Of a stretch of DNA of 32,537 nucleotides, positions 4,632 to 31,320 are shown piece by piece. The notes below the pieces were generated by a model. That model was given only the letters and a program-made list of their open reading frames with translations, made no database searches and had not been told where the DNA came from. The position numbers and the translations under genes were made by a program. The stretch is taken from positions 1 through 32,537 of the forward strand of contig JAEUPC010000002.1 of assembly GCA_016789865.1 (NCBI GenBank). Reading direction: 5' to 3'. Origin of the DNA: Rubrivivax sp. Lineage in GTDB: Bacteria > Pseudomonadota > Gammaproteobacteria > Burkholderiales > Burkholderiaceae_C. Each line of letters begins with the position of its first letter. Within the stretch, counting starts at the first letter, position 1.

Positions 4632-4790
4632 GCGGCGGCGCAGCGGCAGCCGTTGGCCGATGAGCTGTGTCTGGCCCAGGCAGTGCCGTTGGATGTTCGG
4701 GTTGGCGGCCGAGCCGAAGCGCTGGAACAGCGTGATGGCGCCGCCGTGGCCTTCTTCGGCCGTCAGCTCAGCGCGCCCGCACAATCCGAG
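4632..4790 (-). pseudogene. IS91-type transposase relic (internal segment)
   Basis: Read on the minus strand, 4656-4772 gives ELTAEEGHGGAITLFQRFGS, then AANPNIQRHCL. This matches my memory of the conserved core of IS91-family rolling-circle transposases, which reads GAVTLIQRFGSAANLNIHLHCL. The match stops abruptly at about 4680, where the expected VLDGVY continuation is lost, and nothing recognisable precedes it. It is therefore a short fossil of the internal part of the gene. It overlaps the 5' end of the longest plus-strand frame of the next gene, which argues that the true start of that gene lies further downstream. Confidence 0.7.
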
Positions 4791-7700: not shown

Positions 7701-8216
7701 ATCGGGCGCGCGCTCGGCCGCTCGGCGTTGCCGCGGCTGCGCGAGGCGATGGCACTGCTCGGCGAGCGCGGCGACCCGTACACGCGCATGGTGGCAGAGC
7801 TGGACGAGAGCCGCGAGCTCGAGCCCGACCTGGCGGCGCGGCAGTGCCTGCGCGTCGCTGACGAGGCCGACGCGCTGGAGCATTTCGCCGCCGGCATGCG
7901 GGCCCGCGTGCTGGCCGTGGAGGCGATGCTGCGTGGCGCGGACCCGCCGGCGGCGCTGCCGCTGGCGCAGGAAGTCCGCGCACGCCTGCCGGACTGCGCC
8001 GCCGGCGACTTCTACGCCCCCGAGGCGATGTGGATCGTGCAGCAAGCGCTGGCGGCCGGCGGCGACCCGGCCGGCGCCGCCGCGCTGCTCGTGCAGGCGC
8101 GCGCCTGGGTGACGCGGACCGCCCTGCCGCACGTGCCACCATCGTTTCGCGAGAGCTTCCTGCAGCGCAACCCGGTCAACCGGGCCCTGCTGATCAACGC
8201 CCCTGAAGTCCCCTGA
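4653..8216 (+). CDS. BTAD/AAA/TPR transcriptional activator (STAND-type regulator)
   Basis: A very large regulator, 1187 residues from the first ATG, predicted to be cytoplasmic and DNA-binding. Residues about 77-155 look like the winged-helix part of SARP-type activators (VHLLGAARIERP onward). About 160-295 is the helical bacterial transcriptional activator domain (BTAD), including LEHAHRRLMRLHYLRGDRAA. A STAND-type ATPase follows with Walker A GEPGVGKT (344-351) and Walker B ALVALDDLHHAD (441-452), then the sensor-like RHTGGNPMFLLE. The C-terminal 550 residues are alpha-helical TPR-like repeats. Such proteins usually switch on a nearby gene set when ATP and an unknown ligand bind. The start is uncertain: the first ATG lies inside a transposase relic, and the best ribosome-binding site points to an ATC codon at 4839. 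The three secreted-protein genes downstream on the same strand are possible targets (inference). Confidence 0.85.
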   Translation: MADELCLAQAVPLDVRVGGRAEALEQRDGAAVAFFGRQLSAPAQSEGQSGAERRSTGSREAAISDSDASAPPGSEQRVHLLGAARIERPAAAPHVLERKDAALLTLLALDGPTAAARAAALLWPDTAAQQARNNLRQRLFRLRRAAGSVVVATGPMLKLAQAPWVDIVRLDDLLTADAGAATGDLLGGLDYSDTEGLEQWVQAARARCHATRLNILARRASELEAQHEIAAALVYAQRMLAHDPLLEHAHRRLMRLHYLRGDRAAALAAFQRCREALHVELGTQPDGETMQLAALIESSHPLPQPAPPARAPATLRPPRLVGRDSEWQRLESARRAGHAALVIGEPGVGKTRLLADFTAARGTVPPVGARPGDARLPYALLARLVRGLLATLGPPGTAWAVSELARVVPELGPATPGPLLPLRLRQALHQALAEGLAAGLALVALDDLHHADEATLDLLLPLIAAAHAGGPAWLLAVRAAEMPPALAAWADATAADGQLDRLPLEPLPLPAVQQLLESLAVPGLDAAQWAAALTRHTGGNPMFLLETLIAMLGEGAGRWPVRDGPPVLPGWPASTRIGALIEQRLQRLSPGALKLARTAALAGSDFSAELAAAVLGRHVLDIADDWRELEAAQVIRDDAFAHDLILEGTLRSIPAPIAGAMHRDLAEALRQRRAPPARVAAHWAEAGEWAQAALAFREAAGAAFAAARPADEVQLWQRAIDCHERAGDRAGAFRARHASFEAVMAAQPLEQADALAERLAGDARDDSETLDARLAQAWVALGAGDASRAHDLATQAQALARLLARPANEFDATRTQALALAQLRRAAEGAAALEPLGTWVEAHGNATQQHRYWSDLAYVLNLANRRREAAKAWTRAIETARLLGDQQEEATCTTNLTGIAGQLGQPAQALQYAERAQRLQARLGEAQGIGAGAVDMNLALFEALHGRFDRALALFEAVLERFRGGSATSWQAACEHNFAVTWLQLGQTARAGRQLTPVSERALLSTRARRLVVEGRIGRALGRSALPRLREAMALLGERGDPYTRMVAELDESRELEPDLAARQCLRVADEADALEHFAAGMRARVLAVEAMLRGADPPAALPLAQEVRARLPDCAAGDFYAPEAMWIVQQALAAGGDPAGAAALLVQARAWVTRTALPHVPPSFRESFLQRNPVNRALLINAPEVP
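4827..4841 (+). promoter_or_regulatory. Strong ribosome-binding site before a possible ATC start
   Basis: AGGGAGG at 4827-4833 is followed after five bases by ATC (4839-4841), in frame with the BTAD/AAA/TPR gene. The resulting product would begin 15 residues before the first conserved strand (VHLLGAARIE), a normal N-terminus for this family. No ATG, GTG or TTG in this frame has comparable spacing. ATC starts are rare, so this is a suggestion that also fits a recent ATG-to-ATC change. Confidence 0.4.
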
Positions 8217-8360
8217 AGCCTCCCCCCATTGAAGGGCGTTCGCGCGCCCAGGCACTGGGGCAGCAGCGCCGGTAACGCTTTGGGAACGCACGCCCCGCGA
8301 CAGTGGCGGCGAGCCGGGCACTCCGAGCCCGGACATCGACACTGTCATCCCGGGGAGGTC

Positions 8361-9737
8361 ATGGTGGAACAGGTCAATCGATCGAGGCAACGCAGGCGGA
8401 CGATCTGGGTGGCGCTGGCAGCGCTCTCGTTGGCCGGCTGCGGCGGAGGTGGCGGCAGCGACCCGCCGGTCGGTGAGGGCGCTGCACCTGCACCTGCACC
8501 TGCACCTGCACCTGCACCTGCACCTGCACCTGCACCTGCACCGGGACCTGGACCTGGACCTGGACCTGGACCTGGACCTGGACCTGGACCTGGACCTGGA
8601 CCTGGACCTGGACCTGACCCTGCGCCCGCACCGGGACCCGCGGCGAGTCCAACCACCAAGCGAATCAGCGCCAGCAATCGGCACACCCTGCTGTTGCGGG
8701 CGGATGGTCAGCTTCTATTGCTGGGCGGACAGATGAACGGCGGCTCAGCAGGGGTCAGCGTCCCAGGAACTTCGGCGAGGACGGTGTCGGGGTTACCGGC
8801 GCTCGCGGCGGTCGTCGCCGAAACGAACGCCGTTGGCGGCATGACGCTCGCCGTGACGCCGACGGGGGCCGCGTGGGGATGGGGAAACAACGCCGACCGA
8901 GGCCTCGGCGTGCCGTACTCGGCCTCCAATCCGATCACGCAGGTGAACACTCCGGTGGGCGTGGGCTTGTTGGGTGCGGTGGTCGAGGCCGCACCGTGCG
9001 GAACGACATCGTTCGGCCTGCGCAGCGACGGCACGGTCTGGCATCTGCCGAGCCTGGTCGCCGCGGGCGGCGCACCTTCGGCCAGCCTGGTTGTCGGCCT
9101 CCCTGCCATCGCCAGCATGGGCAGAAGCGGCACGGCCCTGGTGGGTTGCAGCTTGCCGCTCGTCGGGCGCGACAAGACGGTCTGGGAGATGACAACCGCG
9201 CCGGGAGGTGGCGGCACCGGAGTCCTACGGGCCTGGAACACCACGGTCAGGCAGATCACCGGCCTGCCGGCGATCGAGCAGGTGTCGTGCACCGGCAACC
9301 AGGAAGACCGGGGCACCTGCCTCGCGGCGGCATCCGACGGAACGGTGTGGGCGTGGGGTGCGCAGGCCGGCACCTTCGTCGGCGACTACACGAGCCCGGG
9401 GCGCACTTTGCCGATCCAGTTGCCGGCGCCGGTGAACGTGGCCGACGTGCACATCGGCGGCGCCTGCACTCTGGCGCGCCTGCGCACGGGCGAGGTGTGG
9501 GCGCTCCAGGAATGCAGGACCTTCTTCGACCCCGTCAACCCGGGTGTCCAGGCGGGGTTGTTCCCGGGGCTCGCAGGCGTGGTCGAACTCTCCGTCGGCA
9601 ACGAGCATGCGGTTGTGCTGAAGGCCGATGGCTCGGTCTGGAGCTTCGGCCGCAACGTGCTCGGCGCGTTCGGGGACGGCCTCGCGGGCAATGCGAGCAA
9701 CGTGCCGGTTCGAGCGGTCGGCATCAACCTGAACTGA
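8361..9737 (+). CDS. RCC1-like beta-propeller lipoprotein
   Basis: A predicted lipoprotein of 458 residues. An Arg-rich start and hydrophobic helix lead to the lipobox LSLAGC with acylated Cys27, followed by a short Gly/Ser spacer. An Ala-Pro then Gly-Pro linker (about residues 40-95) precedes a domain with repeated WGWGNN, DGTVWHL, DGTVWAWG and DGSVWSFG segments. That is the signature of RCC1-type seven-bladed propellers, here with irregular blades. Bacterial RCC1-like proteins of this type are surface or periplasmic; their partners are mostly unknown. GGGGAGG at 8352-8358 is very close to ATG 8361 and better spaced for GTG 8364, so the start could be one codon later. It lies 144 bases after the STAND regulator and 71 before a DUF1036-like gene on the same strand, and may share regulation with them. 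Confidence 0.88.
   Translation: MVEQVNRSRQRRRTIWVALAALSLAGCGGGGGSDPPVGEGAAPAPAPAPAPAPAPAPAPAPGPGPGPGPGPGPGPGPGPGPGPGPDPAPAPGPAASPTTKRISASNRHTLLLRADGQLLLLGGQMNGGSAGVSVPGTSARTVSGLPALAAVVAETNAVGGMTLAVTPTGAAWGWGNNADRGLGVPYSASNPITQVNTPVGVGLLGAVVEAAPCGTTSFGLRSDGTVWHLPSLVAAGGAPSASLVVGLPAIASMGRSGTALVGCSLPLVGRDKTVWEMTTAPGGGGTGVLRAWNTTVRQITGLPAIEQVSCTGNQEDRGTCLAAASDGTVWAWGAQAGTFVGDYTSPGRTLPIQLPAPVNVADVHIGGACTLARLRTGEVWALQECRTFFDPVNPGVQAGLFPGLAGVVELSVGNEHAVVLKADGSVWSFGRNVLGAFGDGLAGNASNVPVRAVGINLN
8484..8615 (+). repeat. Hexanucleotide repeat tract coding an Ala-Pro/Gly-Pro linker
   Basis: Nine copies of GCACCT (8484-8537), one GCACCG, then twelve copies of GGACCT (8544-8615), all in frame, give alternating Ala-Pro and then Gly-Pro dipeptides between the lipid anchor and the RCC1 domain. 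Because the unit is six bases, slippage would change linker length without changing frame. The switch from one hexamer to another suggests two separate expansions. Confidence 0.95.
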
Positions 9738-17208: not shown

Positions 17209-20088
17209 TCACGGCGGCGGCGTGTTCGTCACCACGAGCGTTCCCACCCGGTAGGTGTGGAAGTTCCTCTCGTCCAGCACGCCCACGCCGCTGATGAGTG
17301 CGAAGTCCTTCCACGGGTTGCCGCCCGAGAGCCCGACGCGGATCTCGTAAGTGCCCAACGCGGTTGGTGCGGTGATCGTCCGCGTCTGGGCGAATGGTCC
17401 CGGCGCCCATGTCGCCGAGGTGGTGAAGTGGTCATCGACCGATGCCGCCGGCACGCTGTTGACGCTCAGGTGCATGAACTGCATCAGGTTGGCCGCCATC
17501 GGCATGCGGTACCAGTTCAGGTTGATGCCCACCCGGGCGCCGGGCAGCGCGTAGTAGGTGGACGGCGTGGCGAGTTCCGCGCGCGTGGTCAGCGGCACGG
17601 CCGAGACCGTCGGCAACGGCACGTTGCCCGTCTGCACGTAGCTCAGCACGGCGTCCTTCCAGTGGTTCATGGCGATCAGGCGGCCGGAGTCGTTCGGGTG
17701 AACGCCGTCACTCACGTACATCGTGCCCAGCACCCCGGTGAGCGACGGCACGAAGAAGACCTTGTAGAAGATGCCGCTGCTGTTGGCGGCCTTCGCCTGC
17801 ACCATCTGCTGGATCTTGCTGTACACGGTGGGCATCGGGTCCGATGAACGCTCGAAGTTGGAGACGAACACTGCGGTGCGCGAGTTGCGCGCGTGGATCA
17901 TGTCGACAATCGTCGCGATGCGGCCGACCACCGCGTCCTGCGCGGCCGGGTCGTTGGGGAAGTACCCGTCGTTCACGCCGATGTTGAGCAGCACAATGTC
18001 CGGCGTGACCTGGTCCACCCAGCCGTTGATCTGGGAGATGACATGGCTGGTGTTCCAGCCGCTGCGGCCGACTTGCGGTGCCGTCACCGGGCTGACGACG
18101 ACCGGCTCGTTGGCGTTCATGTAGCCGAACACCTGCGAGTTCCTGCCGCTGGCGCTCAAGGCCTGGGTGATGGTCTGGTAGCCGGGGAAGGTGGCCAGGT
18201 TCTCGGTGTTCGAGTCCCCCACCGGCATGATTCGCCAGGAGTTGCCGATCTGCGGTGACGGGCTGGCGCTGGTGGCCACCGTGACCGTGAACGACTGCGT
18301 CGCCGCCAGCCCGCCGGGGTCGGCCACGCGCGCCGTGACGGCGTGGCTGCCGGTCTGCGTGGAGGTCGGCGTCCAGGTGATCTGGCCTCCGGTGGCGTTG
18401 ATCGTCATGCCGGCCGGGGCCTGCGTGAGCGAGTAGCTGAGCGGGTCGCCGTTCGCATCGGTGGCCGTCACGCGGTAAGAGTAGGCGGCGCCCACCGTGG
18501 CGCCGGTGACCGGCGAGGACGTGATCTGCGGGGCCACGTTGGCGCTGGCCACGGTCACCGTGAACGACTGCGTCGCTGCCAGCCCTCCGGGGTCGGCCAC
18601 GCGGGCCGTGACGGCGTGGCTGCCGGTCTGCGCGGAGGTGGGTGTCCAGGCAATCTGGCCGCTCGTCGAGTTGATCGACATGCCCGCGGGTGCCTGCGTG
18701 AGCGAGTAGCTGAGCGGGTCGCCGTTCGCATCGGTGGCCGTCACGCGGTAGGCATAGGCGGTGCCCACCGCGGCGCTTGTGACCGGGGTGGAGGTGATCT
18801 GCGGCGCCACGTTGGCGCTGGCCACCGTCACTGTGAACGACTGCGTCGCCGCCAGGCCGCCCGGGTCGACCACGCGCGCGGTCACGGCGTGGCTGCCGGC
18901 CTGCGTGGACCCGGGTGTCCAGCCGATCTGGCCGCTGGTCGAGTTGATCGTCATGCCGGCAGGTGCCTGCGTGAGCGAGTAGGTCAGCGTGTCGCCGTTC
19001 GCATCGGTGGCCGTCACCCGGTACGCGTAGGCTGCACCCACGGTGGCGCTGGTGATCGGTGTCGAAGTGATCTGCGGCGCGACGTTGGAAGACGTGACGC
19101 TGACGGTGAACGACTGCGTTGCCGCCAGCCCACCCGGGTCGGCCACGCGCGCGGTCACGGCGTGGTTGCCGGCCTGCGCGGACCCAGGCGTCCAGGCGAT
19201 CTGGCCGCTTGCCGAGTGGATCGACATGCCGGCCGGCGCCTGCGTGAGCGAGTAGCTCAGGGTGTCGCCATTCGCATCGGTGGCCGTCACGGTGTAGGCG
19301 TAGGCCAGGCCCACCGCGGCGGCAGTGACCGGTGTGGAGGTGATCTGCGGCGCCACGTTGCCGCTGGAGACGGCGATGGTGAACGACTGCGTCGCGGCCA
19401 ATCCGGCCGGATCGGCCACGCGCACGGTCACAGAGCGGTTGCCCGTTTGCGCAGACGTGGGCGTCCAGGCGATCTGGCCGCTGGTCGCGTTGATCGTCAT
19501 GCCGCTGGGCGCGCGCGTCAGCGAATACCGCAGCGTGTCGCCGTTGGCATCGGAGGCCGTCACCCGGTAGGCATAGGCCACGCCCACCCGTGCGGTGGTC
19601 ACCGGCGTGGAGGTGATCTGCGGCGCCACGTTGCCGCCGGACGAGACCGTGAGCGTGCCCACCTTGTAGCGGCGGTCGTTGCCCGGGTCGGTGACGCCGG
19701 CGCCCATGGCCAGCGCGATGTCGGCCCAGGGATTGCCGCCCGACAGCCCGACCCGCACGTCGTAGGTGCCTGCGGTCAGCGTGGCAGGCAAGGTGATGGT
19801 GCGCGTCTGCGAAAAGGGCCCGGCCGTCCAGGTGGCCGAAGTCGTCATGTGGTCGTCCACTGACCACAGGGCACCGCCCGAACCCACCAGGTGCATGAAC
19901 TGCAGGTAGTTCGCCGCCATCGGCAGGCGGTACCAGTTCAGCGTGATCGCCACCGTGCCCCCGGGAGCTGCGGAGTAGGTGGTCGGGGTGGCCAGGTCCA
20001 CGCGTGTCTGGGAGGGCGCCTGCGCCCACACCGGAAAGGCCAGGGCCGCTGCGGCGGCCAGGAAGATGGCGAGCAGGCGCTTGATCAT
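17209..20088 (-). CDS. Secreted multidomain SGNH/GDSL hydrolase with five Ig-like repeats
   Basis: An exported 959-residue protein. A signal peptide (MIKRLLAIFLAAAAALAFPV, cleavage near WAQA) is followed by a beta domain at about 28-150. Five tandem 91-residue cadherin/He-PIG-like repeats fill 153-607, each starting NVAPQITS and containing DANGD. The SGNH hydrolase domain is at about 613-820: GDSN with nucleophile Ser626, the NIGVND block with Asn706, and SDGVHPN with Asp794 and His797. A C-terminal domain (835-959) is a second copy of the N-terminal one; both share NWYR.PMAAN..QFMHL and VRVGLSGGNPW or its close variant. Such enzymes deacylate polysaccharides or hydrolyse esters outside the cell, and the repeats act as spacers. 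AGGGAGG lies five bases before ATG 20088. Monocistronic, as both neighbours point away or converge. Confidence 0.92.
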   Translation of the reverse strand: MIKRLLAIFLAAAAALAFPVWAQAPSQTRVDLATPTTYSAAPGGTVAITLNWYRLPMAANYLQFMHLVGSGGALWSVDDHMTTSATWTAGPFSQTRTITLPATLTAGTYDVRVGLSGGNPWADIALAMGAGVTDPGNDRRYKVGTLTVSSGGNVAPQITSTPVTTARVGVAYAYRVTASDANGDTLRYSLTRAPSGMTINATSGQIAWTPTSAQTGNRSVTVRVADPAGLAATQSFTIAVSSGNVAPQITSTPVTAAAVGLAYAYTVTATDANGDTLSYSLTQAPAGMSIHSASGQIAWTPGSAQAGNHAVTARVADPGGLAATQSFTVSVTSSNVAPQITSTPITSATVGAAYAYRVTATDANGDTLTYSLTQAPAGMTINSTSGQIGWTPGSTQAGSHAVTARVVDPGGLAATQSFTVTVASANVAPQITSTPVTSAAVGTAYAYRVTATDANGDPLSYSLTQAPAGMSINSTSGQIAWTPTSAQTGSHAVTARVADPGGLAATQSFTVTVASANVAPQITSSPVTGATVGAAYSYRVTATDANGDPLSYSLTQAPAGMTINATGGQITWTPTSTQTGSHAVTARVADPGGLAATQSFTVTVATSASPSPQIGNSWRIMPVGDSNTENLATFPGYQTITQALSASGRNSQVFGYMNANEPVVVSPVTAPQVGRSGWNTSHVISQINGWVDQVTPDIVLLNIGVNDGYFPNDPAAQDAVVGRIATIVDMIHARNSRTAVFVSNFERSSDPMPTVYSKIQQMVQAKAANSSGIFYKVFFVPSLTGVLGTMYVSDGVHPNDSGRLIAMNHWKDAVLSYVQTGNVPLPTVSAVPLTTRAELATPSTYYALPGARVGINLNWYRMPMAANLMQFMHLSVNSVPAASVDDHFTTSATWAPGPFAQTRTITAPTALGTYEIRVGLSGGNPWKDFALISGVGVLDERNFHTYRVGTLVVTNTPPP
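18268..19632 (-). repeat. Five tandem 273-bp coding repeats
   Basis: The Ig-like repeats of the SGNH protein are each exactly 91 codons. They are very similar at DNA level, especially the second to fifth copies, where phrases such as GCGTGAGCGAGTAGCTGAGC recur. The constant length and high identity point to recent unequal crossing-over. Copy number may vary between strains and may be wrong in short-read assemblies. Confidence 0.9.
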
Positions 20089-21594: not shown

Positions 21595-21633
21595 TCGTCG
21601 CGCCGGGCGCACGCCGCGCTCGAAGGGTGCCAG

Positions 21634-21662
21634 GGGCCCCGCGCCAACGCGGGGCCCTTTTT
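21634..21662 (+). terminator. Intrinsic terminator of the thiolase gene
   Basis: GGGCCCCGCG (21634-21643) pairs perfectly with CGCGGGGCCC (21648-21657) across the four-base loop CCAA, followed directly by five T. It separates the thiolase transcript from the DyP-P450 gene. Confidence 0.93.
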
Positions 21663-21861
21663 CGTTTCCGGGCCACGTCGCGGGCCCGTCGGGCTTCGGC
21701 GTCGGCATCATCCGTCATCGGCATGATGACCCGGGCTGCCGCGCATGCCCGAATCGCTGCGGCCGTGGCCCCCCAGAGCCCCTGTGTTGCGCGGGCCTTG
21801 CGGGGTGGCCCGCCGGCCCGCAGGGCAGCGGCCCGAACCATCGAGAGCAGGAGCGAGGTCC

Positions 21862-24800
21862 ATGCGCCCCGACATCAAGAGCACCGCCCTCAACGGCACG
21901 GCCAACCTGGCGCTGGTTGCGCCGGTGAAGCCGGGCTTCATCCCCGGCGCCGACACCGTCACCTACGCGCGCCGGCTGGAGGCGCTGCTGAAGACGCTGA
22001 TGGCCATCCGCGTGGGCGGCCGCGAGACGGCGCGCTTCACCACGCCATTCCCCGACGCCGTCGGGCGCCTGGGCCTCCTGCAGTCGTTTCGCTACGCGGT
22101 GATTCCGCCGCGCGTGGGCTCGCGTGGCGAAGACCCGCTGCCGCCCGGCGTGCTGGTTGCCGGCACCTACCGCCTGTACCTCAACGTCGTCTTCGACGGC
22201 GGCTGGGAGCCGTACATGCGCGTCATCTACCGCGACCTGGGCTACCTGCTCGATGCGATCTTCTGCAACACGGCGGGCTACCGCCTGAGCACGCAGCACA
22301 GCTACGACGCCTACTGCCGCTGGGTGCGCGACCACGAGGTGCCCGCCGGCATCCTCTACACCGAGAGCGCCGGTTCGGTGCTCGACACGCGCTATGCCGA
22401 GGCGGTGGAGCGCTGCCAGCGCGAGCAGGCCGACCCCGCCGCCGCACGCCGCGCGATCGCCGGCTACGCGCTGCCCGCGCCGATCGACACGCCCACTGCG
22501 TTGAAGAATCTGGCCGCCGCGGCGCCCGAGGTGCGGCGCGAAGTGGTGGCCAACAACCTGCGCGCGCTGAAGGGCCTGTACGACCTGCGTGTGCTGCATC
22601 CCCGAAACCAGGAGCGTGACGACGAACGCCTGCTCAATTTCGCGCAGCGCGCGATGCCCGAATTCCGCGCCTTCCTCACGCAGGCGCAGGCCGAGCCCGG
22701 GCTGCAGCCGCACCGCGACCATGTGCGCTGGCTGCTCGGCCCGCCCACGGGCGAGGGGCCGCCGGCCGGCAAGCCGGCGCGCTTCGACCCCGCCGACATC
22801 CAACGCGGCATCCATCAGCGCTGCGAAGGCGTCACGCACGGGAGCCTGCTGCTGCTGCGCGTAAGCAGCGCAGCGCAGGCCCGCCAGTGGGTCGGCCGGC
22901 TGGGCCGCGACACTGCGCAGCACGCTACTGCGCTCGGCGAGCCACTGACCTGGAACATCGCCTTCACTGCCAACGGGCTGCGCGCGCTGGGCGTGCCGCC
23001 CTCGCGCATCGACCGCTTCCCGCAGGAGTTCATCGAGGGCATGGAAGCGCGCGCCGGCCTGCTGGGCGACGTGCGCACCAACCACCCCGAACATTGGCGG
23101 CGGCCAAGGCTGCGTGTGCCCGCTTCGCAGGCCGCCGCTGCGCAGGCCGCCGCTGCGCAGGCCGCCACGTCGCCGGCCGCGCCGCCGCCGCCGATCGAGG
23201 TGGATCTCGGCGCCGTGCACATCGTGCTGCAGTACCGGCTCGCGTCGAAGAGCGAAGCCGACCGCCCGCTGCACAGCGCGCTGCAAGAGCTCGCCGAGGC
23301 CATCGACCCGGCGCGCGATGGCGTGCTGCTCCTGGCCGCCGAACCGATGCGCAGCTACGCCCAGCAGCCCGGCGGCGGCACCGTCACCGAGCACTTCGGT
23401 TTCCAGGACGGCTTCAGCCAGCCCGAGCCGCGGCATGGCACCGCGCCGGCGCCGGCTTTCCGCGCCTGGGACAACAGCGTCCAGCCCGGCGAGCTGTATC
23501 TCGGCCACCCGGGTGACCGCGACCCGGGGCGCTTCCCCGATGTGGCCGACCGGTTGATGGACAACGGCAGCTTCCTCGTCGTGCGCAAGCTGCGCCAGCA
23601 TGTCGGCCGCTGGCAGGCGATGCTGGCGCGCGCCGCGGCGGCCGGCGACCCGCAATACCCCCAGCGCCCGGCCGCCGAGCAGCGCGCCGCGCGCGACGCC
23701 ATCGCCGCCAGGCTGATGGGCCGCCGCCACGACGGCACCGTGCTTGCCGACGACGCCGTGGGGACCAGCAACGACTTCAACTACGACGCCGACCCGCACG
23801 GCGCACGCTGCCCGTTCGCGGCGCACATCCGCCGCGCCAACCCGCGTTCGCCGTGGCGCGCCGAGCAGGGGCGCAAGCTGCCGCGCATCCTGCGCCGCGG
23901 CATGTCGTACGGGCCGCGCTGGGCTGGCGAAGGCACGCCCGACGCCGAGGCCGAACGCGGCCTCATCTTCATGGCCTACTGCGCGAGCCTGGCCGAGCAG
24001 TTCGAGACCCTGCAGCGCTGGGTGGCCGGCGGCAACAGCAGCGGCGTGCACTCGTCGCACAGCGACCCGATGCTCGGCGTGCCGGTCACGGGCACGCCGC
24101 GCCTCATGCAGTGGGCCGAGGCCGATGGCCGCGTCGTCACCGTCGACCTGGGCGACCTGCCGATGGTCGATCTGGAATGGGGCCTGTACCTCTTCGCGCC
24201 CTCGCTCACGGGGCTCGAGGCGCTGGCGGCCGGGTTCGACGCCGACACGCCCGCGCCTCCGGCGGCCACCTGCCCGCTGAAGGGCGAGCGCTACCGGCCC
24301 GCCGGCCCCGCGTTCGACGAACGCAAGCTCATGCTGCAAGGCCGCCGCGACGACAAGGACACGCTGTGGCGTGCCGTCAACGCCTGCGGCGGCCGGCTGC
24401 AGACGGCCTACGGCCAGCTCGAAGGGCGCAAGGCAAAGGTGCGCACGGTGCTGCGCGACGGCGGCACGCGGCATTCGGTGTGCGGCTACGGCCGCCGCTT
24501 CGCCGCCGGTGTAGGGCCGGGCTTCCTCGGCATGGACGACCCCGATCACCAGCGCCTGGCCGAGGACTCCGGCATCAAGGCGGCCATCGCCGCCATCGAC
24601 GAGCCGAAGGCCTTTGCCACCGCGCGCGCGGTGGCCGCCGGTGTGCTCGACACGGTGCTGAAGAACCTGGCCGCCGTCGGCCAGCCGGCCACCATCGACC
24701 TCGTGCGCCTGAGCGAAGCGGTGATCCTGCGGCTGTACCGCGCGTGGTGGGGCCTGCCCGACGCCGAAGGCAAGTTCATGCAGGAAGGCTACAGCGCCCA

Positions 24801-25557
24801 GACGCATCTGGACGACAGCGCCCAGGCGCACTGCCCGCGCGACTTCGTCTACGTGGCCCGGCTGAACTTCGGTGCGCACCCGTCGCCCACCGAAGTCGAT
24901 CTCGGCGTGAAGCGCGGACAGGCCATCCAGCGCGCGGTGCGCAAGTACCTCGAGGCCACGCCCCCCGAGCAGCTGGTCGGCCTGTCGAAGTTCATTCACG
25001 AGGCCCTCGTGCAGAGCCACCCGAAGCGCAAGAAGGCGTTCGAAGAAGCGGTGTGGACCATCGGCGGCACGATGCTCGGCTTCGGCCCTTCGACGCACCA
25101 GCACTTCGTGCAGGTGGTGCGCGACTGGATCGACCCCTCGCGCACCGGCGGCACGACGCTGTGGGACCTGCAGGCGCTGCTGTGGGCCCAGGGTGCGGCT
25201 GCGGCGCCCACGCTGGCCGGCGCGCACCGGGTGCTGCGCGAGCCGCTGGTGGCGCAGATGCGGCGCGAGCCGGTGCCGGGCGTCATCTGGCGCGAGAAGC
25301 CCGGCACGAAGAAAGGCCGCAACGCACCCGAGCCGCCCAAGCTCGTGCTCGGCCTGCATGGGCTGATGGACGACCCCGACGCCGAGCTGCTGATGTTCGG
25401 CGGCACGATGGATCGCCGGCACCCGCTGTTCGGCAAGCATGCCTGCCCCGGCCACGGCATGGCCATCGGCGTGCTGCTCGGCGTGCTGTCGGCGCTGCTC
25501 ACCGCCGGGCGGCTGAAGCGCACGCCGTCGTCGACGATCGTGATGGTCGAGCGCTGA
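21862..25557 (+). CDS. DyP-type peroxidase / cytochrome P450-like fusion protein
   Basis: A 1231-residue soluble protein with two predicted haem domains and no signal peptide. Residues 1-290 form an alpha/beta domain (LNVVFDGGWEPYMRVIYRDL) of a kind I recall beside DyP peroxidases. DyP peroxidase spans about 310-800: TEHFGFQDGFSQP with catalytic Asp516, CPFAAHIRRANPR with proximal haem ligand His655, and ILRRGMSYGP with distal Arg678/679. A P450-like domain spans about 815-1231: FLGMDDPDHQR (C-helix), an I-helix around 1063-1085 and GKHACPG (1191-1197) with thiolate ligand Cys1195, which fits GxHxCxG. The I-helix reads LGFGPSTHQ without the usual acid before Thr, and the ExxR position reads AQMR (1131-1134). 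AGGAG at 21849-21853 supports ATG 21862; an ATG at 21745 would add 39 poorly biased residues. No ferredoxin or reductase gene is nearby. The substrate is unknown. Confidence 0.9.
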   Translation: MRPDIKSTALNGTANLALVAPVKPGFIPGADTVTYARRLEALLKTLMAIRVGGRETARFTTPFPDAVGRLGLLQSFRYAVIPPRVGSRGEDPLPPGVLVAGTYRLYLNVVFDGGWEPYMRVIYRDLGYLLDAIFCNTAGYRLSTQHSYDAYCRWVRDHEVPAGILYTESAGSVLDTRYAEAVERCQREQADPAAARRAIAGYALPAPIDTPTALKNLAAAAPEVRREVVANNLRALKGLYDLRVLHPRNQERDDERLLNFAQRAMPEFRAFLTQAQAEPGLQPHRDHVRWLLGPPTGEGPPAGKPARFDPADIQRGIHQRCEGVTHGSLLLLRVSSAAQARQWVGRLGRDTAQHATALGEPLTWNIAFTANGLRALGVPPSRIDRFPQEFIEGMEARAGLLGDVRTNHPEHWRRPRLRVPASQAAAAQAAAAQAATSPAAPPPPIEVDLGAVHIVLQYRLASKSEADRPLHSALQELAEAIDPARDGVLLLAAEPMRSYAQQPGGGTVTEHFGFQDGFSQPEPRHGTAPAPAFRAWDNSVQPGELYLGHPGDRDPGRFPDVADRLMDNGSFLVVRKLRQHVGRWQAMLARAAAAGDPQYPQRPAAEQRAARDAIAARLMGRRHDGTVLADDAVGTSNDFNYDADPHGARCPFAAHIRRANPRSPWRAEQGRKLPRILRRGMSYGPRWAGEGTPDAEAERGLIFMAYCASLAEQFETLQRWVAGGNSSGVHSSHSDPMLGVPVTGTPRLMQWAEADGRVVTVDLGDLPMVDLEWGLYLFAPSLTGLEALAAGFDADTPAPPAATCPLKGERYRPAGPAFDERKLMLQGRRDDKDTLWRAVNACGGRLQTAYGQLEGRKAKVRTVLRDGGTRHSVCGYGRRFAAGVGPGFLGMDDPDHQRLAEDSGIKAAIAAIDEPKAFATARAVAAGVLDTVLKNLAAVGQPATIDLVRLSEAVILRLYRAWWGLPDAEGKFMQEGYSAQTHLDDSAQAHCPRDFVYVARLNFGAHPSPTEVDLGVKRGQAIQRAVRKYLEATPPEQLVGLSKFIHEALVQSHPKRKKAFEEAVWTIGGTMLGFGPSTHQHFVQVVRDWIDPSRTGGTTLWDLQALLWAQGAAAAPTLAGAHRVLREPLVAQMRREPVPGVIWREKPGTKKGRNAPEPPKLVLGLHGLMDDPDAELLMFGGTMDRRHPLFGKHACPGHGMAIGVLLGVLSALLTAGRLKRTPSSTIVMVER

Positions 25558-25577: not shown

Positions 25578-25642
25578 GACGAGCCGCGCTGACGAACCGC
25601 GCTGACGAACCGCGCTGACGAACCGCGCTGACGAGCCGCGGT
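25578..25642. repeat. Five tandem 13-bp repeats between convergent genes
   Basis: The unit GACGAACCGCGCT is repeated five times: three exact copies in the middle (25591-25629) and outer copies with one or two changes. The array lies in the 104-base gap between the convergent stops of the DyP-P450 and cyclase genes. It contains no hairpin with a T-tract. Confidence 0.92.
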
Positions 25643-25661
25643 GAGGGCGCAGGCGGCGGCG

Positions 25662-28600
25662 CTACAGGCCCGCAAGCAGTTGCCGGGCCTGCTCGGCGTG
25701 CCAGGCCATGCCCAGCGGCTCGAAGGCCGACAGCGCCGCGTCGGCTTCTCGCCGCGCGGTGGCGCGGTCCTCCGCAGCCAGCGCCAGGTCGGCGGCGCAC
25801 AGGCGGTTGGCTGCGGCCTCGTGCAACGACTCGCGCCAGGTGGCGATGCGCGTGGCGCGGGCCAGCCAGTGCTGCGCGCGTTCGGGCCGGCGCCACTGGG
25901 CGGCGTCGCGCGCCAGCGCGCGGCAGGCCTGGGCCACGCCGATCACGTCGCCGGCGCGGGCGCGCAGCAGCGCGCGCGCGCCATGCTCGCGGGCCAGCGC
26001 CCGCTCGCCGCGGGCGAACCAGGCCTCGGTGAGCCAGCCGTGGTCGAGCGAACGGAACAGGCCGCTTTCGCGCGGCACCAGCCAACGCGTGCTTTCGGCC
26101 AGACGATCGACCGCGTGCTCGTCGCCAGTGGCCACCCAGCCGGCGTAGGCCGCCGTGGCGCGGCCCTGGCAGAACTGGAACAGGCTGTGCGTGCGTTCGG
26201 CGATGGCCGTGGACTCGTCGGCTGCGGCCACGGCCTCGGCCCAGCGCCCCTGCCAGGTGAGGATGACGGCGCGCCAGCCCTGGATGGATGCGCCGATCTG
26301 ATGCCCGGCACCCTGGCCCTGCAGCAGCGCCCAGGCGTCGTCGAGCAGCTCCGCGGCCGGCCCGAAATTGCCGCGGTCGCCATGCACCGAGGCCAGGCAA
26401 ACCAGCGAATAGGCCAGGCCCACCGGCGCCTTGCTGCCGCGGCGGTGCGCGCGCTTCACCGCCACCGCATGGGCCAGCAGCGGCTCGGCGCTGCCGTAGT
26501 GGCTGGCCGCGGCCAGCGCCTGGCCCAGCGTGGCGCCGATCTGCACCGCCAGCGGGTCGGTGCCGTCGCCGGCCAGCGCCGCGGCGCGTTCACAGTGGCG
26601 CACGGCATCGCGCGCCTGGCCCAGCGCGTAGAGGATGTAGCCGAGCCAGTACTCGGCGCGGGCGCGCTGCGAAGGGTCGGGCTGGCCGGTGGCCAGCCGG
26701 ACCGCGCGCTCGAACACCGGCAGGTCCTTGCGTGCGGCGTCGAACACGCACACCAGGCCCAGCTTGTTGGCGATCTGCAGCCAGCGCGCCGTGCGGGCGG
26801 CGGCCGGGCCGCCGGCACCACCGGCAACATCGGCGTCGGCGGCACCCTCGGATCCGTCTTCGATGCCCAGCGCCTCCAGGTGCGCCAGCGCGGCGTGGTA
26901 CAGCGCCTTCGCGCGGTCCAGCGCCGACAGTGCGGCGGCGCGGTCGCCGCCGCTTTCGGCGTGCAGCGCGGCCTCGGCGCTGCGCCCGGCGGCGCCCAGG
27001 TGGTAGGCCAGCGCCTCGTGCGGGTCTTCGCTGGCCTGGCTGGCGTGGCGCGCCAGCGCATCGGCCACACGGCCATGCAGCACGCGGCGCTCGTGCAGGC
27101 CCACCGAGTCGTAGATGACGTCGCGCGCCAGGCCATGCTTGAAGCGCAGCGACGCACCCGCCGGCTCGGGGTACAGCAGGTCCTGCTCGGCCAGCTCGCG
27201 CAGGGCCTCGTCGTCCGGCGCCAGCCCGGTCACGGCGCGCAGCAGCCATGTCGGCACCACGTTGCCGATGACCGCCAGCTGCCGCACGAGGGCCGCCAGC
27301 CCGGCCGGCAGCCGCGCCACGCGCGACTCGATCAGCAATTGCAGCCACGCGGCGCCGGCCTGCTGGCCCGGCTGGCGCACGCGTTCGTGCCGGGCCGAGT
27401 GGCACAGCTCCTCGATGAACAGCGGGTTGCCGCCGGAGTGCCGGTAGATCTCGTCGGCGAGGAACGGGTCGGCCTGGGGCAGCAGCGCGCGGATGCTGAG
27501 CGCGCCCTCTTCGGCCGAAAGCGGCGCGAGCTCGAGGACCTCGACATGGCGCATCGACACCTCGCCGGCGTCGACGCTGCGGTGGGAACTCAGCACGAAC
27601 AGCCCCAGCGCCGGCGTGGCGGCCACCGTGGCCGTGAGCGTGGCCAACGCCTGGCGCGTTGCGGCATCGGCCCAATGCCAGTCGTCCAGGAAGAGCACCA
27701 GCGGCTGACGTGCGGCGCAGGCCACCAGCACTTCGGCAGCGGCTTGCGAGACGGCTTCGAGGCCGACGAGGGCCGCCGAGGCCGGTGGGCGCTGGGCGGC
27801 GCAAGCGGTGCTTCCCGGATCGCCGCCAGTCCCCACCGCCGGGCCACCCACCAGCGGCTGCAGCGTGGTGGCGAGCCGGTCGAGCCCCAGCCGCTGCAGC
27901 GCCGCAGCAAGGGCCGATGGCGTGGCGATGCGCGTGGCCATGCGGTCGCAGGTGTCGTCGGTCTCGCCGGTTTCGCCGGCATCGCCGGCATCACCGGCAT
28001 CACCGGCATCACCGGCATCACCACGCCCACGGTCATCGTCACGGCCGCGATCTCGGCCGCGATCTCGGCCGCGTTCGCCATCGTCCTCGCCACGGCCGCC
28101 CTCATCGGCCTGCGCCGAGCTGCTTTCCACGTGGGCAGCACCCGCGGTCACGGCGTGGCCCGCGCCGCCCTCGGCGCCCGGGGCGCCGAGGTGCAGCGCG
28201 GCGCGCAGCAGCTGCACCCAGGGCGCCAGCGGCGCCGCGTCGAGCTCGCTGTCGCAGCGGGCCTCCAGCAGCCGGCAGCCCTTGCGCTCGGCCTGTCGCA
28301 GGAACTCGGCGGCCAGGCGCGTCTTGCCCACGCCCGGCGGGCCGACGATGGCCACCTGCCGCAGTGCGCCGCCCAGCGCTTCGCCCAGCCGCTGATCGAG
28401 CCGCTGCAGCTCGCGCGTGCGGCCGACGAAGACGTGCGCGGCGCCGCGCGCCGGCCCGGGCGGGTGCAGTGCACGCGGCTGGGCCCGCCCCTCGATCGGC
28501 CAGCACTCGATCGGCCGCTCGTGGCCGTGTGCGTGCACGGCTCGCGCCGCGCCGGTGGCGAAGAATGCCCGGTCGCGGCCGAGCGTCTCGTCGCTGACCA

Positions 28601-29132
28601 GCACCTCGTCGCGGCCGGCCGCGGCCGACAGGCGCGAGGCGATGTTGGGCACCATGCCCAGAAGCTCGAGCCGGCCGATGACGACGTTGCCCTCCTGCAC
28701 CAGCACCAGCCCGGCGTGCACGCCGCTGTGCAGCCTGAGCTTCAGGCGCCGGTTGCTGGAAGCCGGCGCGGCCAGCGCGCGCACCGCGGCGCGCAGCTGC
28801 AGCGCGGCCTCCACTGCGCGGCGGCCGTCGCCTTCGCGCGGCTGCGGATGGCCGAACACGGCCAGCATGCCGTCGCCCTGGATGCGCACCACCGTGCCGC
28901 CGTGGCGTGCGACCACGCCTTCGTAGGCTTCGCGCAGCTGGCCCAGCAGCTCGGCGTACTCCTCGGCTTCCAGCGCGGCCGACAGCGCCGTCGAATCGCA
29001 CAGGTCGCAGAACAGCACCGCAAGCCGTTGGCGGCGCGCCGGCGGCTGGGTCTTCGACGGCGGATCGGCGCGGTCGGTGCGTGCGGGCTCGTCGGGCGGT
29101 GCCGGGGGCATCGGGGCGGGGCGGGTGGGCAC
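25662..29132 (-). CDS. Class III adenylate/guanylate cyclase-AAA ATPase-TPR protein
   Basis: A cytosolic signalling protein of 1156 residues. The cyclase homology domain is at about 36-210: LFCDLCDSTAL with metal Asp43, VRIQGDGMLAVFG with metal Asp87, and VPNIASRL with transition-state Asn163 and Arg167. The core residues for catalysis are therefore present; nucleotide preference cannot be read. A STAND ATPase follows from FVGRTRELQRL, with Walker A GPPGVGKT (264-271), Walker B VLFLDDWHWAD and the HSGGNPLFIEEL sensor. The last 550 residues are helical TPR-like repeats. An Arg/Asp/Gly-rich insert (about 340-395) splits the ATPase between Walker A and B. The longest frame starts at GTG 29132; ATG 29111 is equally possible. 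Family members link ligand sensing to cyclic-nucleotide output. It is convergent with the DyP-P450 gene and the last gene of a minus-strand run. Confidence 0.88.
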   Translation of the reverse strand: MPTRPAPMPPAPPDEPARTDRADPPSKTQPPARRQRLAVLFCDLCDSTALSAALEAEEYAELLGQLREAYEGVVARHGGTVVRIQGDGMLAVFGHPQPREGDGRRAVEAALQLRAAVRALAAPASSNRRLKLRLHSGVHAGLVLVQEGNVVIGRLELLGMVPNIASRLSAAAGRDEVLVSDETLGRDRAFFATGAARAVHAHGHERPIECWPIEGRAQPRALHPPGPARGAAHVFVGRTRELQRLDQRLGEALGGALRQVAIVGPPGVGKTRLAAEFLRQAERKGCRLLEARCDSELDAAPLAPWVQLLRAALHLGAPGAEGGAGHAVTAGAAHVESSSAQADEGGRGEDDGERGRDRGRDRGRDDDRGRGDAGDAGDAGDAGDAGETGETDDTCDRMATRIATPSALAAALQRLGLDRLATTLQPLVGGPAVGTGGDPGSTACAAQRPPASAALVGLEAVSQAAAEVLVACAARQPLVLFLDDWHWADAATRQALATLTATVAATPALGLFVLSSHRSVDAGEVSMRHVEVLELAPLSAEEGALSIRALLPQADPFLADEIYRHSGGNPLFIEELCHSARHERVRQPGQQAGAAWLQLLIESRVARLPAGLAALVRQLAVIGNVVPTWLLRAVTGLAPDDEALRELAEQDLLYPEPAGASLRFKHGLARDVIYDSVGLHERRVLHGRVADALARHASQASEDPHEALAYHLGAAGRSAEAALHAESGGDRAAALSALDRAKALYHAALAHLEALGIEDGSEGAADADVAGGAGGPAAARTARWLQIANKLGLVCVFDAARKDLPVFERAVRLATGQPDPSQRARAEYWLGYILYALGQARDAVRHCERAAALAGDGTDPLAVQIGATLGQALAAASHYGSAEPLLAHAVAVKRAHRRGSKAPVGLAYSLVCLASVHGDRGNFGPAAELLDDAWALLQGQGAGHQIGASIQGWRAVILTWQGRWAEAVAAADESTAIAERTHSLFQFCQGRATAAYAGWVATGDEHAVDRLAESTRWLVPRESGLFRSLDHGWLTEAWFARGERALAREHGARALLRARAGDVIGVAQACRALARDAAQWRRPERAQHWLARATRIATWRESLHEAAANRLCAADLALAAEDRATARREADAALSAFEPLGMAWHAEQARQLLAGL
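27948..28115 (-). repeat. Low-complexity repeat block inside the cyclase gene
   Basis: The block contains a 9-bp repeat (CATCACCGG with variants, about 27975-28020) and three copies of a 12-bp unit (CGGCCGCGATCT, about 28045-28080). They code for Gly-Asp-Ala triplets and Arg-Gly-Arg-Asp quartets between Walker A and Walker B. Both units keep the frame, as expected for replication slippage under selection. Confidence 0.85.
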
Positions 29133-29319
29133 AACGATTCTGCCGCCTGCCCCGCGCGCATCCGCTGCTGGCTAACCCACCCGAATCGCGGGGCCGCGGC
29201 GCGCGCCCCATCGCGCGCCCCAGCGTGTGGGCGCGCCGGTACCTTGGCACGCCTGGCTTGGTGCCGCCGCCGGCGACCCAGGCGCCGGCACCGAAGCTGC
29301 CTGGCTCCGGAGGCCAGGC

Positions 29320-31320
29320 TCAAGCCGCGGCCCGCAGCGCGGTGCCGCCCTCGTCAGCGCCGCGCCGGGCCGTGTCCACGCAGTGCACCAGCGCTTCGAT
29401 CAGCGCCGTGCCGTGCAGGGCCGATTCGCCGCGGATCAGCCCGCCCACATCCACCGGCTCGCGCGGCCCCACGCCCAGCGCCACGCGCACGGCGAGCATG
29501 TCGGTGCTGTCGTCCACCAGCAACACCGTGCGGGCCAGCGCCCGCCGCTGCATCAGCAGGCCCAGTTCGTAGGCCGTGCCGCCGCGCTGCGCGGTGAAGC
29601 CGCGCAGGTCCAGCACCACCGCGTCGCTGGAGTCCAGCAGCAACTGCACGGCGTCCTTCCACAGGTCGTCGAAGCAGAAGAACTCGTTGACGCGGTAGCG
29701 GCCGTCGGGGTCGGGGTGCTCGTCGAGCGCGGCCACGCGCTTGTGCAGCTCGTGCACGCTGGGCACGAAGGTGTCGCGCAGGCGTCGGCGCAGGAACTGC
29801 GCCGCCTTGGCCGGGTCGATGGTGCGCGCGGCGGTGTCGGGGCCGCCGATCAGCACGATCGGGCCGACGAAGCGCCAGCGGTACTCGATCTCGTCGAGCA
29901 GGCGCTCGCTGCGCCCGTCCTTGGAGAACACGCGCAGCACCAGCAGCCGCTTGTTGGCCGCGATCGGCCGCACCAGGTAGCGCGTGGCCAGCCAGTAGCC
30001 CAGCAGCGCCAGCACCGTGGCGCCCAGCAGCCAGCGCGACAGCGGGTCGAACAGCTGGGCCTCGTTGACCAGGGTCTCGATGGCGATCACCACGCCGGCG
30101 ATGGCCAGCATCCAGGCGAAGACCTGGAACTGGGCGTCGGAGAAGAGCTTGCGCTCGTAGGCCAGGCCGATCCAGCTGAGGGCGAAGGTGGCCGGCAACC
30201 AGGCCAGGGCGAGGCACGCCAGCGCGCCGGGCACCACTGCCCAGTCGGGCAGCGCGCCCAGCAGGGCCATCGCCAGCACCGCGGCGGTGAACAGCCACGC
30301 GAACAGGCCCACGGCGATCATCGGCACCACGATGCGCTTGATGCGGTCGACCATCGTCACGTAGCACGCGCCGATGGCCAGCGCCGCGCCCACGCTGCCG
30401 GCCACCAGCACCTGTGCCACGCTGATGCGGTAGCCCTGCACCTGCGCCTTGGCCGGACCCTCCTCACCGAGCAGGCCGATCACCACCAGCAGCCCGAAGG
30501 TGCCCAGCGCGCCGCCCGCCCACGCCGTCTTGCGATGGCCGGCCAGCCAGGCGCGCGCGCCCGTCCACCACGATGCCGGAGTCCACTCGCGCAGTGCCAC
30601 GGCGGCCAACGTCAGCAGCGGCACGCCGGCCAGCGCCCACAGCAGCCGCGGGTCTTCGTTCTCGCCGCCGGCCAGGCCGTTGATGATGACGATCTGCATC
30701 GCCACCGAGGCGAACGCCCACGGCGCGATCCACACCCAGAACAGGTGCGCGAAGTTCGCCGCCGACACGCCCAGCAGCACCACCGGCGCGGTGAGCGCGG
30801 TGAACATCGCCACCGACACCGCGTGCGACAGGACGTTGTAGCGGGCGCTGCCATAACCCCAGGCCAGGCCCGCGGCCAGCGAGTACAGCAGCACCATCGT
30901 GACGAGGATGGCAAGCACCAGGCGGCGCTGGCCTTCCATCGCGGCCAGCAGCCGCGGCGCCGACCACGGCGGCTCATCGTCGAGCGCGGCCAGCCCCAGC
31001 GCCTTGCGCGAGGCGGCGCCCATGAAGCCCAGCAGCCGCCGCCGATAGCGCCTGAGCACCCAGCCGGCGGCCAGCTGGGCCGCGACCACGGTGGCGATGC
31101 CCAGCCACACCAGCACCTGCGTCAACTCCTTGGCGAAGTTGTCTTCGGCCGCCGGCGGGGCTGGTGCGGCCGGCGCCGTCGATGCAGCCAAGGCGCCATG
31201 CGCCGCGGTGACAGCCCAAGCCGCGCCCGGCGTTGCGGGCTCGCCGGCGACACGGGCCGCCGCGGCGCCGAGGAGATCGGCCAGCGGCTCGATCACGGCT
31301 GCGAGCAGGGCGGCATCCAT
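29320..31320 (-). CDS. Polytopic membrane protein with a cytosolic alpha/beta C-terminal domain
   Basis: An inner-membrane protein of 666 residues and unknown function. One helix near 68-90 is followed by about nine to ten more between 137 and 455. From about 462 a cytosolic domain begins, LLVLRVFSKDGRSERLLDEI, and continues through FVGPIVLIGGPD and NEFFCFDDLWKDAVQLLLDS. It ends SDAVVLDLRGFTAQRGG, GTAYELGLLMQ and ARTVLLVDD. That strand/helix order resembles TIR-like or nucleoside-deoxyribosyltransferase-like Rossmannoid domains that sense or process nucleotides, but I cannot assign a family. ATG 31320 is chosen; a TTG just before it is also open. It starts 64 bases after the NCS2 permease stop and may share its transcript. 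The 187-base gap to the cyclase gene holds only a seven-base hairpin (29300-29319) without a T-tract. Confidence 0.8.
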   Translation of the reverse strand: MDAALLAAVIEPLADLLGAAAARVAGEPATPGAAWAVTAAHGALAASTAPAAPAPPAAEDNFAKELTQVLVWLGIATVVAAQLAAGWVLRRYRRRLLGFMGAASRKALGLAALDDEPPWSAPRLLAAMEGQRRLVLAILVTMVLLYSLAAGLAWGYGSARYNVLSHAVSVAMFTALTAPVVLLGVSAANFAHLFWVWIAPWAFASVAMQIVIINGLAGGENEDPRLLWALAGVPLLTLAAVALREWTPASWWTGARAWLAGHRKTAWAGGALGTFGLLVVIGLLGEEGPAKAQVQGYRISVAQVLVAGSVGAALAIGACYVTMVDRIKRIVVPMIAVGLFAWLFTAAVLAMALLGALPDWAVVPGALACLALAWLPATFALSWIGLAYERKLFSDAQFQVFAWMLAIAGVVIAIETLVNEAQLFDPLSRWLLGATVLALLGYWLATRYLVRPIAANKRLLVLRVFSKDGRSERLLDEIEYRWRFVGPIVLIGGPDTAARTIDPAKAAQFLRRRLRDTFVPSVHELHKRVAALDEHPDPDGRYRVNEFFCFDDLWKDAVQLLLDSSDAVVLDLRGFTAQRGGTAYELGLLMQRRALARTVLLVDDSTDMLAVRVALGVGPREPVDVGGLIRGESALHGTALIEALVHCVDTARRGADEGGTALRAAA

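Follow-up and report, generated by a model that had tools for sequence, protein, structure and literature searches.

Background

Peroxidases joined to cytochromes P450 are already known from fungi and oomycetes, on a peroxidase fold other than the one treated here (excerpts of PMC5919972). In the fungal Ppo or linoleate diol synthases (DOX-CYP, CYP6001-6005) the peroxidase is N-terminal, the P450 is C-terminal and both lie in one chain (excerpts of PMC5919972 and PMC4420034). This work concerns a bacterial gene with the same general plan. It lies in a stretch of 32,537 nucleotides from Rubrivivax sp. (GenBank assembly GCA_016789865.1, contig JAEUPC010000002.1), called the window from here on, and it encodes an N-terminal alpha/beta domain (N-domain), a DyP-type peroxidase and a P450-fold domain. 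An earlier note on this DNA, made from the letters alone, had proposed the fusion and likened it to the fungal enzymes. No report of a DyP-P450 fusion was found among the titles and opening lines of abstracts listed in searches of an open-access library, a scope that takes in neither subscription papers nor preprints.

Our preferred reading, to which we give a probability of roughly 0.5, is that the protein is a soluble two-haem enzyme that oxidizes fatty acids or lipids with peroxide, much like a dioxygenase (DOX)-P450 oxylipin enzyme built on an unrelated peroxidase. Shown by sequence and model are the domains, motifs and neighbours set out below; what we infer is haem in both halves, a lipid substrate, the use of peroxide and which way transfer runs from one site to the other.

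A single frame shared by many genomes

The gene runs from 21862 to 25557 on the plus strand, stop codon included, and encodes 1231 amino acids in an uninterrupted frame, as the earlier note had claimed. The window is an entire contig (G000:C61) of a draft genome of 4.59 Mb that is 77% complete, and a draft invites the suspicion that the fusion is an artefact of assembly or a frameshift. The closest named kin of the locus are Rubrivivax metagenome-assembled genomes. However, the same single frame is found in many independent isolate genomes, among them Variovorax, Roseateles and Pelomonas, so neither a frameshift between the halves nor a mis-assembly lies behind the fusion. We give the artefact next to no chance.

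Homologues with the same order of parts, for which the earlier note advised a search, are numerous. Among 198 searched relatives, own genome included, 36 have some match to the fusion: 19 loci sets (L001-L019) have both DyP and P450 parts and 17 genomes match in the DyP region only. Scanning GTDB genomes for a single peptide pattern of the N-domain gave 71 named loci, which is a lower bound. The N-domain is present in all 71 by construction of the scan. The DyP part is there in 71 of 71 and the P450 part in 70, the exception being a frame cut by a contig end; the HxCxG loop is seen in 66, and the other five frames end at a contig edge. Only one pair in our tree is strictly identical (L089/L090), but several other loci are near copies, so these counts are of loci and not of independent events. 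Record titles are mostly Burkholderiales (Variovorax, Roseateles/Pelomonas, Rubrivivax, Pseudorhodoferax, Xenophilus), with Bradyrhizobium and Sphingomonas also represented, and they hint at groundwater, pond, leaf and root as sources. One locus, L092, is titled as a metagenome-assembled genome of Bordetella parapertussis, yet its protein groups closely with Ideonella and the name may be wrong. A profile of the P450 half has matches in 3 of 369 genomes of the class and 8 of 398 of the phylum; in 2 of those 3 and 5 of those 8 the match is partial and falls in frames of 414-501 residues that resemble stand-alone P450s.

The frame extends 5' as far as an ATG at 21745. The likely start is nevertheless 21862, because close relatives begin at that methionine and a probable ribosome-binding site, AGGAG (21849-21853, plus strand, found by eye), lies 8 bases 5' of this ATG. 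An inverted repeat with a T-run (21630-21664, plus strand, also by eye) resembles a terminator and splits the fusion from the thiolase gene upstream, so in the window's genome the fusion probably has its own transcript. A hydropathy scan of the window protein finds one stretch slightly above 1.8, at residue 1200. Since this is the helix past the thiolate in the P450 part, we read the protein as soluble. A stretch of at least 1.8 is also present in 29 of the 71 named relatives.

The peroxidase half and the N-domain

Residues 301-812 (22762-24297, plus strand) are a DyP-type peroxidase as judged by domain, catalytic residues, and matches of sequence and predicted model to known structures; the end of this part takes in a variable linker rich in proline and alanine. 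Pfam Dyp_perox_C passes its cut-off of 20 with 36.2 bits (6.3e-9). Pfam DyP_N stays below threshold (4.9e-4, 20.7 against 27.5 bits), as does TIGR01413 below its curated cut-off (1.3e-24, 87.1 against 100.5 bits), these being cut-offs that belong to annotation models and do not define chemistry. Peroxidases in the PDB match down to 3e-32, the best being a Deinococcus DyP (8re3). An AlphaFold2 model of residues 1-812 has a predicted local distance difference test score (pLDDT) of 69.8, and in a Foldseek search with it 47 of 50 titles among the matches listed read dye-decolorizing peroxidase.

Counting, here and below, the aligned rows that have a residue at the position in question, the catalytic aspartate Asp516 in GFQDG (23407-23409) is kept in 72 of 72, the proximal haem ligand His655 (23824-23826) in 71 of 71 and the distal Arg678 (23893-23895) in 71 of 71, all on the plus strand. 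The roles of such an Asp, His and Arg in DyPs are given in the excerpts of PMC4420034. The earlier note had named Arg679 beside these three; it is kept in 67 of 71 rows.

The N-domain had been put at about 290 residues, and a conserved domain is indeed found at residues 1-300 (21862-22761, plus strand). It is homologous to a separate protein of about 200 amino acids that adjoins DyP genes elsewhere: a comparison of the window N-domain with this small N-type protein, profile against profile, gives 98.8%. A PDB search with the N-domain found no convincing relative (best E 0.97).

The P450-fold half and its motifs

Residues 815-1231 (24304-25554, plus strand) are a P450 fold, going by model and profile comparisons, that lacks the usual motifs for activating O2. 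Where separate Pfam matches to Dyp_perox and p450 had been expected, the peroxidase passes and the P450 does not: Pfam and NCBIfam searches with this half give no match, and the lone PDB sequence match to a P450 is weak (E 0.09). The fold check came out differently. The AlphaFold2 model of this half has a pLDDT of 88.8 and a predicted template modelling (TM) score of 0.91, and all 50 of the Foldseek matches listed are P450s with probability 1.00 (best E 6e-8; TM on the query a modest 0.50-0.63). They include CalO2 and PbdA, which we take to be P450s. Weak PDB profile matches point the same way. With alignment A1 of this half 43 of 46 rows are P450s (best 6.8e-4), and with alignment A4 41 of 42 (best 1.2e-3), the identity being taken from titles and for a few presumed by us; most of these matches span the region from the K-helix to the Cys. 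The link to typical P450s is clearer through relatives whose modules stand in reverse order or as split genes. The window-type half matches five such P450s at 99.4% probability over 334 columns, and the profile of the order-reversed and split P450s in turn has matches down to 3.3e-32 among structures of ordinary bacterial P450s. The P450s of the order-reversed L107 and of Skermanella do match Pfam p450.

The motifs are a mixture of the kept and the lost. The thiolate loop claimed for this half is well conserved: the ligand Cys1195 in HACPG (25444-25446, plus strand) and His1193 are invariant in the 67 rows that reach them, Arg1144 in 68 of 68 and Trp1143 in 69 of 69, and the loop, FG...HxCxG, is lengthened. 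The Glu of ExxR is present in 1 of 68 window-type rows, and the window has A..R. For this reason we name this half P450-fold and place it in no CYP family. Where AGxDTT would stand in the I-helix there is GFGPST (residues 1073-1078; 25078-25095, plus strand), and 64 of the 69 window-type rows read GFxP[TS]. Positions 1075 and 1076, where P450s that activate O2 carry an acid-alcohol pair, have an acid in none of the 69, so that pair is absent. The I-helix Asn of CYP74, FN(T)xGG in the excerpts of PMC13049297, is not found either, GFxP[TS] standing in its place; this was judged by motif only.

The missing acid-alcohol pair suits the use of peroxide, and one could argue that the P450 half is a peroxygenase like CYP152, driven by H2O2, with the DyP setting or scavenging the peroxide and no hydroperoxide passing between the sites. 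The acyl hydrolase links described below would suit its fatty-acid substrates. However, CYP152 enzymes need an Arg (excerpts of PMC5343568) for which the aligned I-helix positions show no equivalent, the residues there being P/L/A/G and P in most rows; this was read from the I-helix columns of our own alignment, with no CYP152 sequence aligned directly. It would also be wasteful for one chain to carry two haem enzymes that compete for H2O2. We consider such a peroxygenase unlikely. Membership in CYP152 itself, raised by a 'PTV' run in the I-helix, was rejected for want of that Arg.

The same modules in other orders

The N-domain, the peroxidase and the P450 also occur together in a different arrangement. 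A relative from the phylum, L112, has a frame of 1533 residues that holds a P450, two hydrophobic stretches, an N-like domain and a DyP, in that order. Its protein has matches in 118 plasmid records; in 9 of these, seven of them from Sulfitobacter, at least 80% of it is covered. In the family of L112, some match is present in 42 of 149 genomes, and four further ones (L115-L118) match along nearly the full length, L115 with one internal stop. In the same family the P450, N and DyP matches may each have a frame of their own, side by side (G1026, G991, G970, G1020); in G827, G1031 and G1036, N and DyP share one frame and the P450 lies in another. Some of these split stretches contain a stop. The P450, N and DyP genes overlap end to end on a plasmid of Skermanella, and a small N-type protein precedes DyP genes on further plasmids. 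Reversal and splitting are seen in alphaproteobacteria. Since N-DyP-P450, P450-N-DyP and separate adjacent genes all occur, we believe the three modules belong together. In the plasmid records listed, annotation labels just one half of such proteins, either as 'cytochrome P450' or as 'Dyp-type peroxidase domain', and this may be why the fusions have been overlooked so far.

The order-reversed P450s have GFxPT in 8 of 8 compared and keep ExxR in 8 of 8; the full FGxGxHxCxG loop is present in 7 of 8, the Novosphingobium protein deviating. AGxDT or AGxET is found in 2 of 4 stand-alone P450s compared. This bears on a further alternative, an ordinary monooxygenase that uses O2 and NADPH through an outside redox partner and was fused to a DyP by chance. 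The P450 fold and the match of the order-reversed and split P450s to normal bacterial ones speak for it. The acid-alcohol pair is absent in either module order, though, and the modules stay linked whether they are reversed, fused or split into separate genes. We hold it to be very improbable.

Proteins of 974 amino acids with N and DyP but no P450 occur in Rhizobium (L137, 8833-11757; L141, 8155-11079), near an annotated heparin lyase and a DNA/RNA non-specific endonuclease. On a Sphingopyxis plasmid (L102, 8112-10541) the N-domain and the start of the DyP are missing and the copy abuts a Tn3 transposase gene, so it was probably truncated by Tn3 insertion.

Acyl hydrolases and fatty-acid genes

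Genes in these loci were called with our own codon-position rule, so genes may be missed or mis-started. A gene for a patatin-like phospholipase lies 5' of the fusion on the same strand, 17-58 bases away, in 12 of the 66 loci with at least 1.5 kb of upstream DNA. Pfam Patatin is found in 4 of 4 upstream proteins examined, three above the cut-off and one just below. An additional SGNH/GDSL domain is fused to the C-terminus in 4 of the 71 named proteins, and L113 is a fifth; Pfam sees it in 2 of the 4, below the cut-off, while motifs and a home-made profile, itself built from those same proteins, see it in all four. L036 has a separate SGNH gene 47 bases upstream, just below the Pfam cut-off. 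Altogether an acyl hydrolase is joined or upstream in 17 of the 71 named loci. A quick tree, which omits the truncated L072 and L055 and leaves the state unset in five rows lacking upstream DNA, requires the hydrolase state to have changed at least four times, so the link was probably gained or lost more than once. The window has, near the fusion, a 959-residue frame on the minus strand (17209-20088) with repeated Ig-like domains and a GDSL lipase domain; a similar frame is found in L031 alone among the 71.

We inspected 13 of the 118 plasmid records that match L112, one lacking annotation. A row of a 'catalase family'-annotated gene, a small protein and a DyP is present on four plasmids (Agrobacterium, Novosphingobium resinovorum, Roseomonas and Shinella), with genes for oleate hydratase, 3-hydroxyacyl-CoA dehydrogenase and acyl-CoA thioesterase running divergently from it. 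A fifth record, Terrarubrum, has 'catalase', ester cyclase, small protein and peroxidase, and it is without the fatty-acid set. L139, L143, L144 and L145, on plasmids from four different genera, share a near-identical layout that looks mobile, and genes for a metal ATPase or a transposase are close by.

DyPs usually oxidize aromatics, so a substrate of another kind has to be weighed: an aromatic or peptide secondary metabolite on which DyP and P450 carry out radical coupling. P450Blt and RufO, which we take to be peptide-coupling P450s, are among the Foldseek matches listed; an 'ester cyclase' gene adjoins the peroxidase in L146, and a radical SAM gene lies at the edge of L141. Against this, the Foldseek matches are of several kinds and only moderately close (TM about 0.6), no nonribosomal peptide synthetase or polyketide synthase gene is named in 14 stretches inspected (one without annotation), and what is found instead is hydrolase and fatty-acid genes. 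We think radical coupling improbable.

The cyclase neighbour

Convergent with the fusion, on the minus strand (25662-29132), is a gene for a protein with a class III cyclase domain, AAA_16 and TPR. It holds the same place in 46 of the 62 loci that have at least 1.5 kb of downstream DNA, the window counted. A cyclase-family gene is elsewhere downstream in 11 of the 62 (two directly adjacent on the same strand), and there is none in 5. Two Asp motifs, which we presume to form the metal site, appear conserved in 39 aligned members. A plus-strand open reading frame of 1318 residues (25641-29597) was rejected as a conserved partner, being the antisense shadow of the cyclase gene. On Pararhizobium and Sphingopyxis plasmids relatives are flanked by a cyclase and a Crp/Fnr gene.

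Such a neighbour could mean that the P450 half is not catalytic at all, that it is structural or senses haem and tunes the DyP or signals with the cyclase. The lost ExxR Glu (67 of 68 rows), the silent Pfam search and the convergent cyclase gene in 46 of 62 loci would all agree with this. However, the loop Cys and His are invariant across deep divergence, 67 of 67, and the order-reversed relatives keep ExxR in 8 of 8 and the full loop in 7 of 8. We find a non-catalytic P450 half distinctly unlikely.

More tentatively, and with well under an even chance, the whole may be a system of oxylipin type that bacteria built around a DyP, made of a hydrolase, the N-DyP unit, a swappable second haem enzyme and class III cyclase signalling. 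The second haem enzyme would be either a catalase-family protein or a P450 that does no O2 chemistry, and the parts would be fused in either order or encoded in operons. Such a system would be a separate origin of the logic of cyclooxygenases and linoleate diol synthases.

The window has a BTAD/AAA/TPR (SARP-like) regulator at 4653-8216 and an RCC1-repeat protein at 8229-9737, both on the plus strand, and on plasmids of Novosphingobium and Sulfitobacter a gene annotated as SARP and a TPR-repeat gene lie ahead of order-reversed relatives.

What the fusion may do

We return to the two-haem lipid enzyme. An acyl chain would be freed by an acyl hydrolase, encoded in a separate patatin or SGNH gene or, in some relatives, in a fused SGNH domain. 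The DyP half with its alpha/beta N-domain would carry out one-electron chemistry that depends on peroxide. The P450 half, having kept its thiolate and lost its O2-activation groups, would rearrange or spend a hydroperoxide and not use O2 and NADPH. The DyP half could either initiate oxygenation of the lipid by radicals or reduce the compounds that the P450 half sets free.

Several points weigh against this. DyPs normally consume peroxide, and they are not known to make fatty-acid hydroperoxides. The loss of the ExxR Glu and the silence of Pfam mean that haem binding in the P450 half is not assured, and the AlphaFold2 model of residues 1-812 is poor near the DyP active site. The I-helix signature is not universal: five rows depart from GFxP[TS] (GLPAT in three, GFVPV and GLLPT), as do the split P450 of Skermanella (GGPPQP) and the window-order one of Sphingopyxis (GAIPPM). 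N-DyP occurs without a P450 in L137 and L141, and in L140 it is adjoined by neither a P450 nor a catalase-annotated gene. The catalase label is annotation only, the L139 protein giving nothing in Pfam, NCBIfam or the PDB. In most loci, the window's among them, no patatin or SGNH gene was found linked to the fusion, and the window's nearest upstream gene is the thiolase, beyond the terminator-like repeat. The tree flags long branches (L066, L077, L099 and L036, for example), so the number of origins is unsure.

If the reading is true, bacteria have convergently invented a lipid-mediator enzyme, with the fungal layout on an unrelated peroxidase, in two orders and with lipase partners. Its P450 half would add a new case from nature of a P450 that works without O2 or NADPH, useful for catalysis. 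The frequent cyclase neighbour gives a way to ask whether bacteria sense oxidized lipids.

Comparison with known systems

The Ppo and linoleate diol synthases are the nearest parallel. The order in one chain is the same, and the HxC of the Cys loop is kept in both (excerpts of PMC13049297). Their P450 is not a monooxygenase, and a lipid link is suggested for the DyP fusion too. However, their peroxidase belongs to the peroxidase-cyclooxygenase superfamily, whereas here there is a DyP fold with an extra N-domain. In the oomycete CYP5619 a P450 precedes the haem peroxidase to which it is joined, the order also seen in the P450-N-DyP relatives. Its partner is a haem peroxidase/dioxygenase, with DyP unmentioned in the excerpts of PMC5919972, and its Cys loop is degenerate while its E-V-K/Q-R is present (same excerpts). 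In Nostoc a 10S-DOX is paired with a catalase-related hydroperoxide lyase (excerpts of PMC13049297), so there too a second haem protein spends the hydroperoxide. This pair resembles the rows of catalase-annotated, N and DyP genes but differs in its cyclooxygenase-like fold and separate genes. The CYP152 peroxygenases are P450s that use H2O2 on fatty acids (excerpts of PMC5343568), and their conserved active-site Arg is absent here. Bacterial DyPs such as the Deinococcus enzyme (8re3) share the domain and catalytic residues but stand alone, without N-domain or P450.

The likeness to the fungal fusions that the earlier note drew survives as an analogy, one that the missing acid-alcohol pair, the hydrolase links and the recurring modules all fit. 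Its picture of a single fusion was too narrow, since the N-domain, the hydrolases and the cyclase neighbour also belong to the system. Our best reading is that this protein is analogous, and not homologous, to the fungal dioxygenase-P450 fusions.

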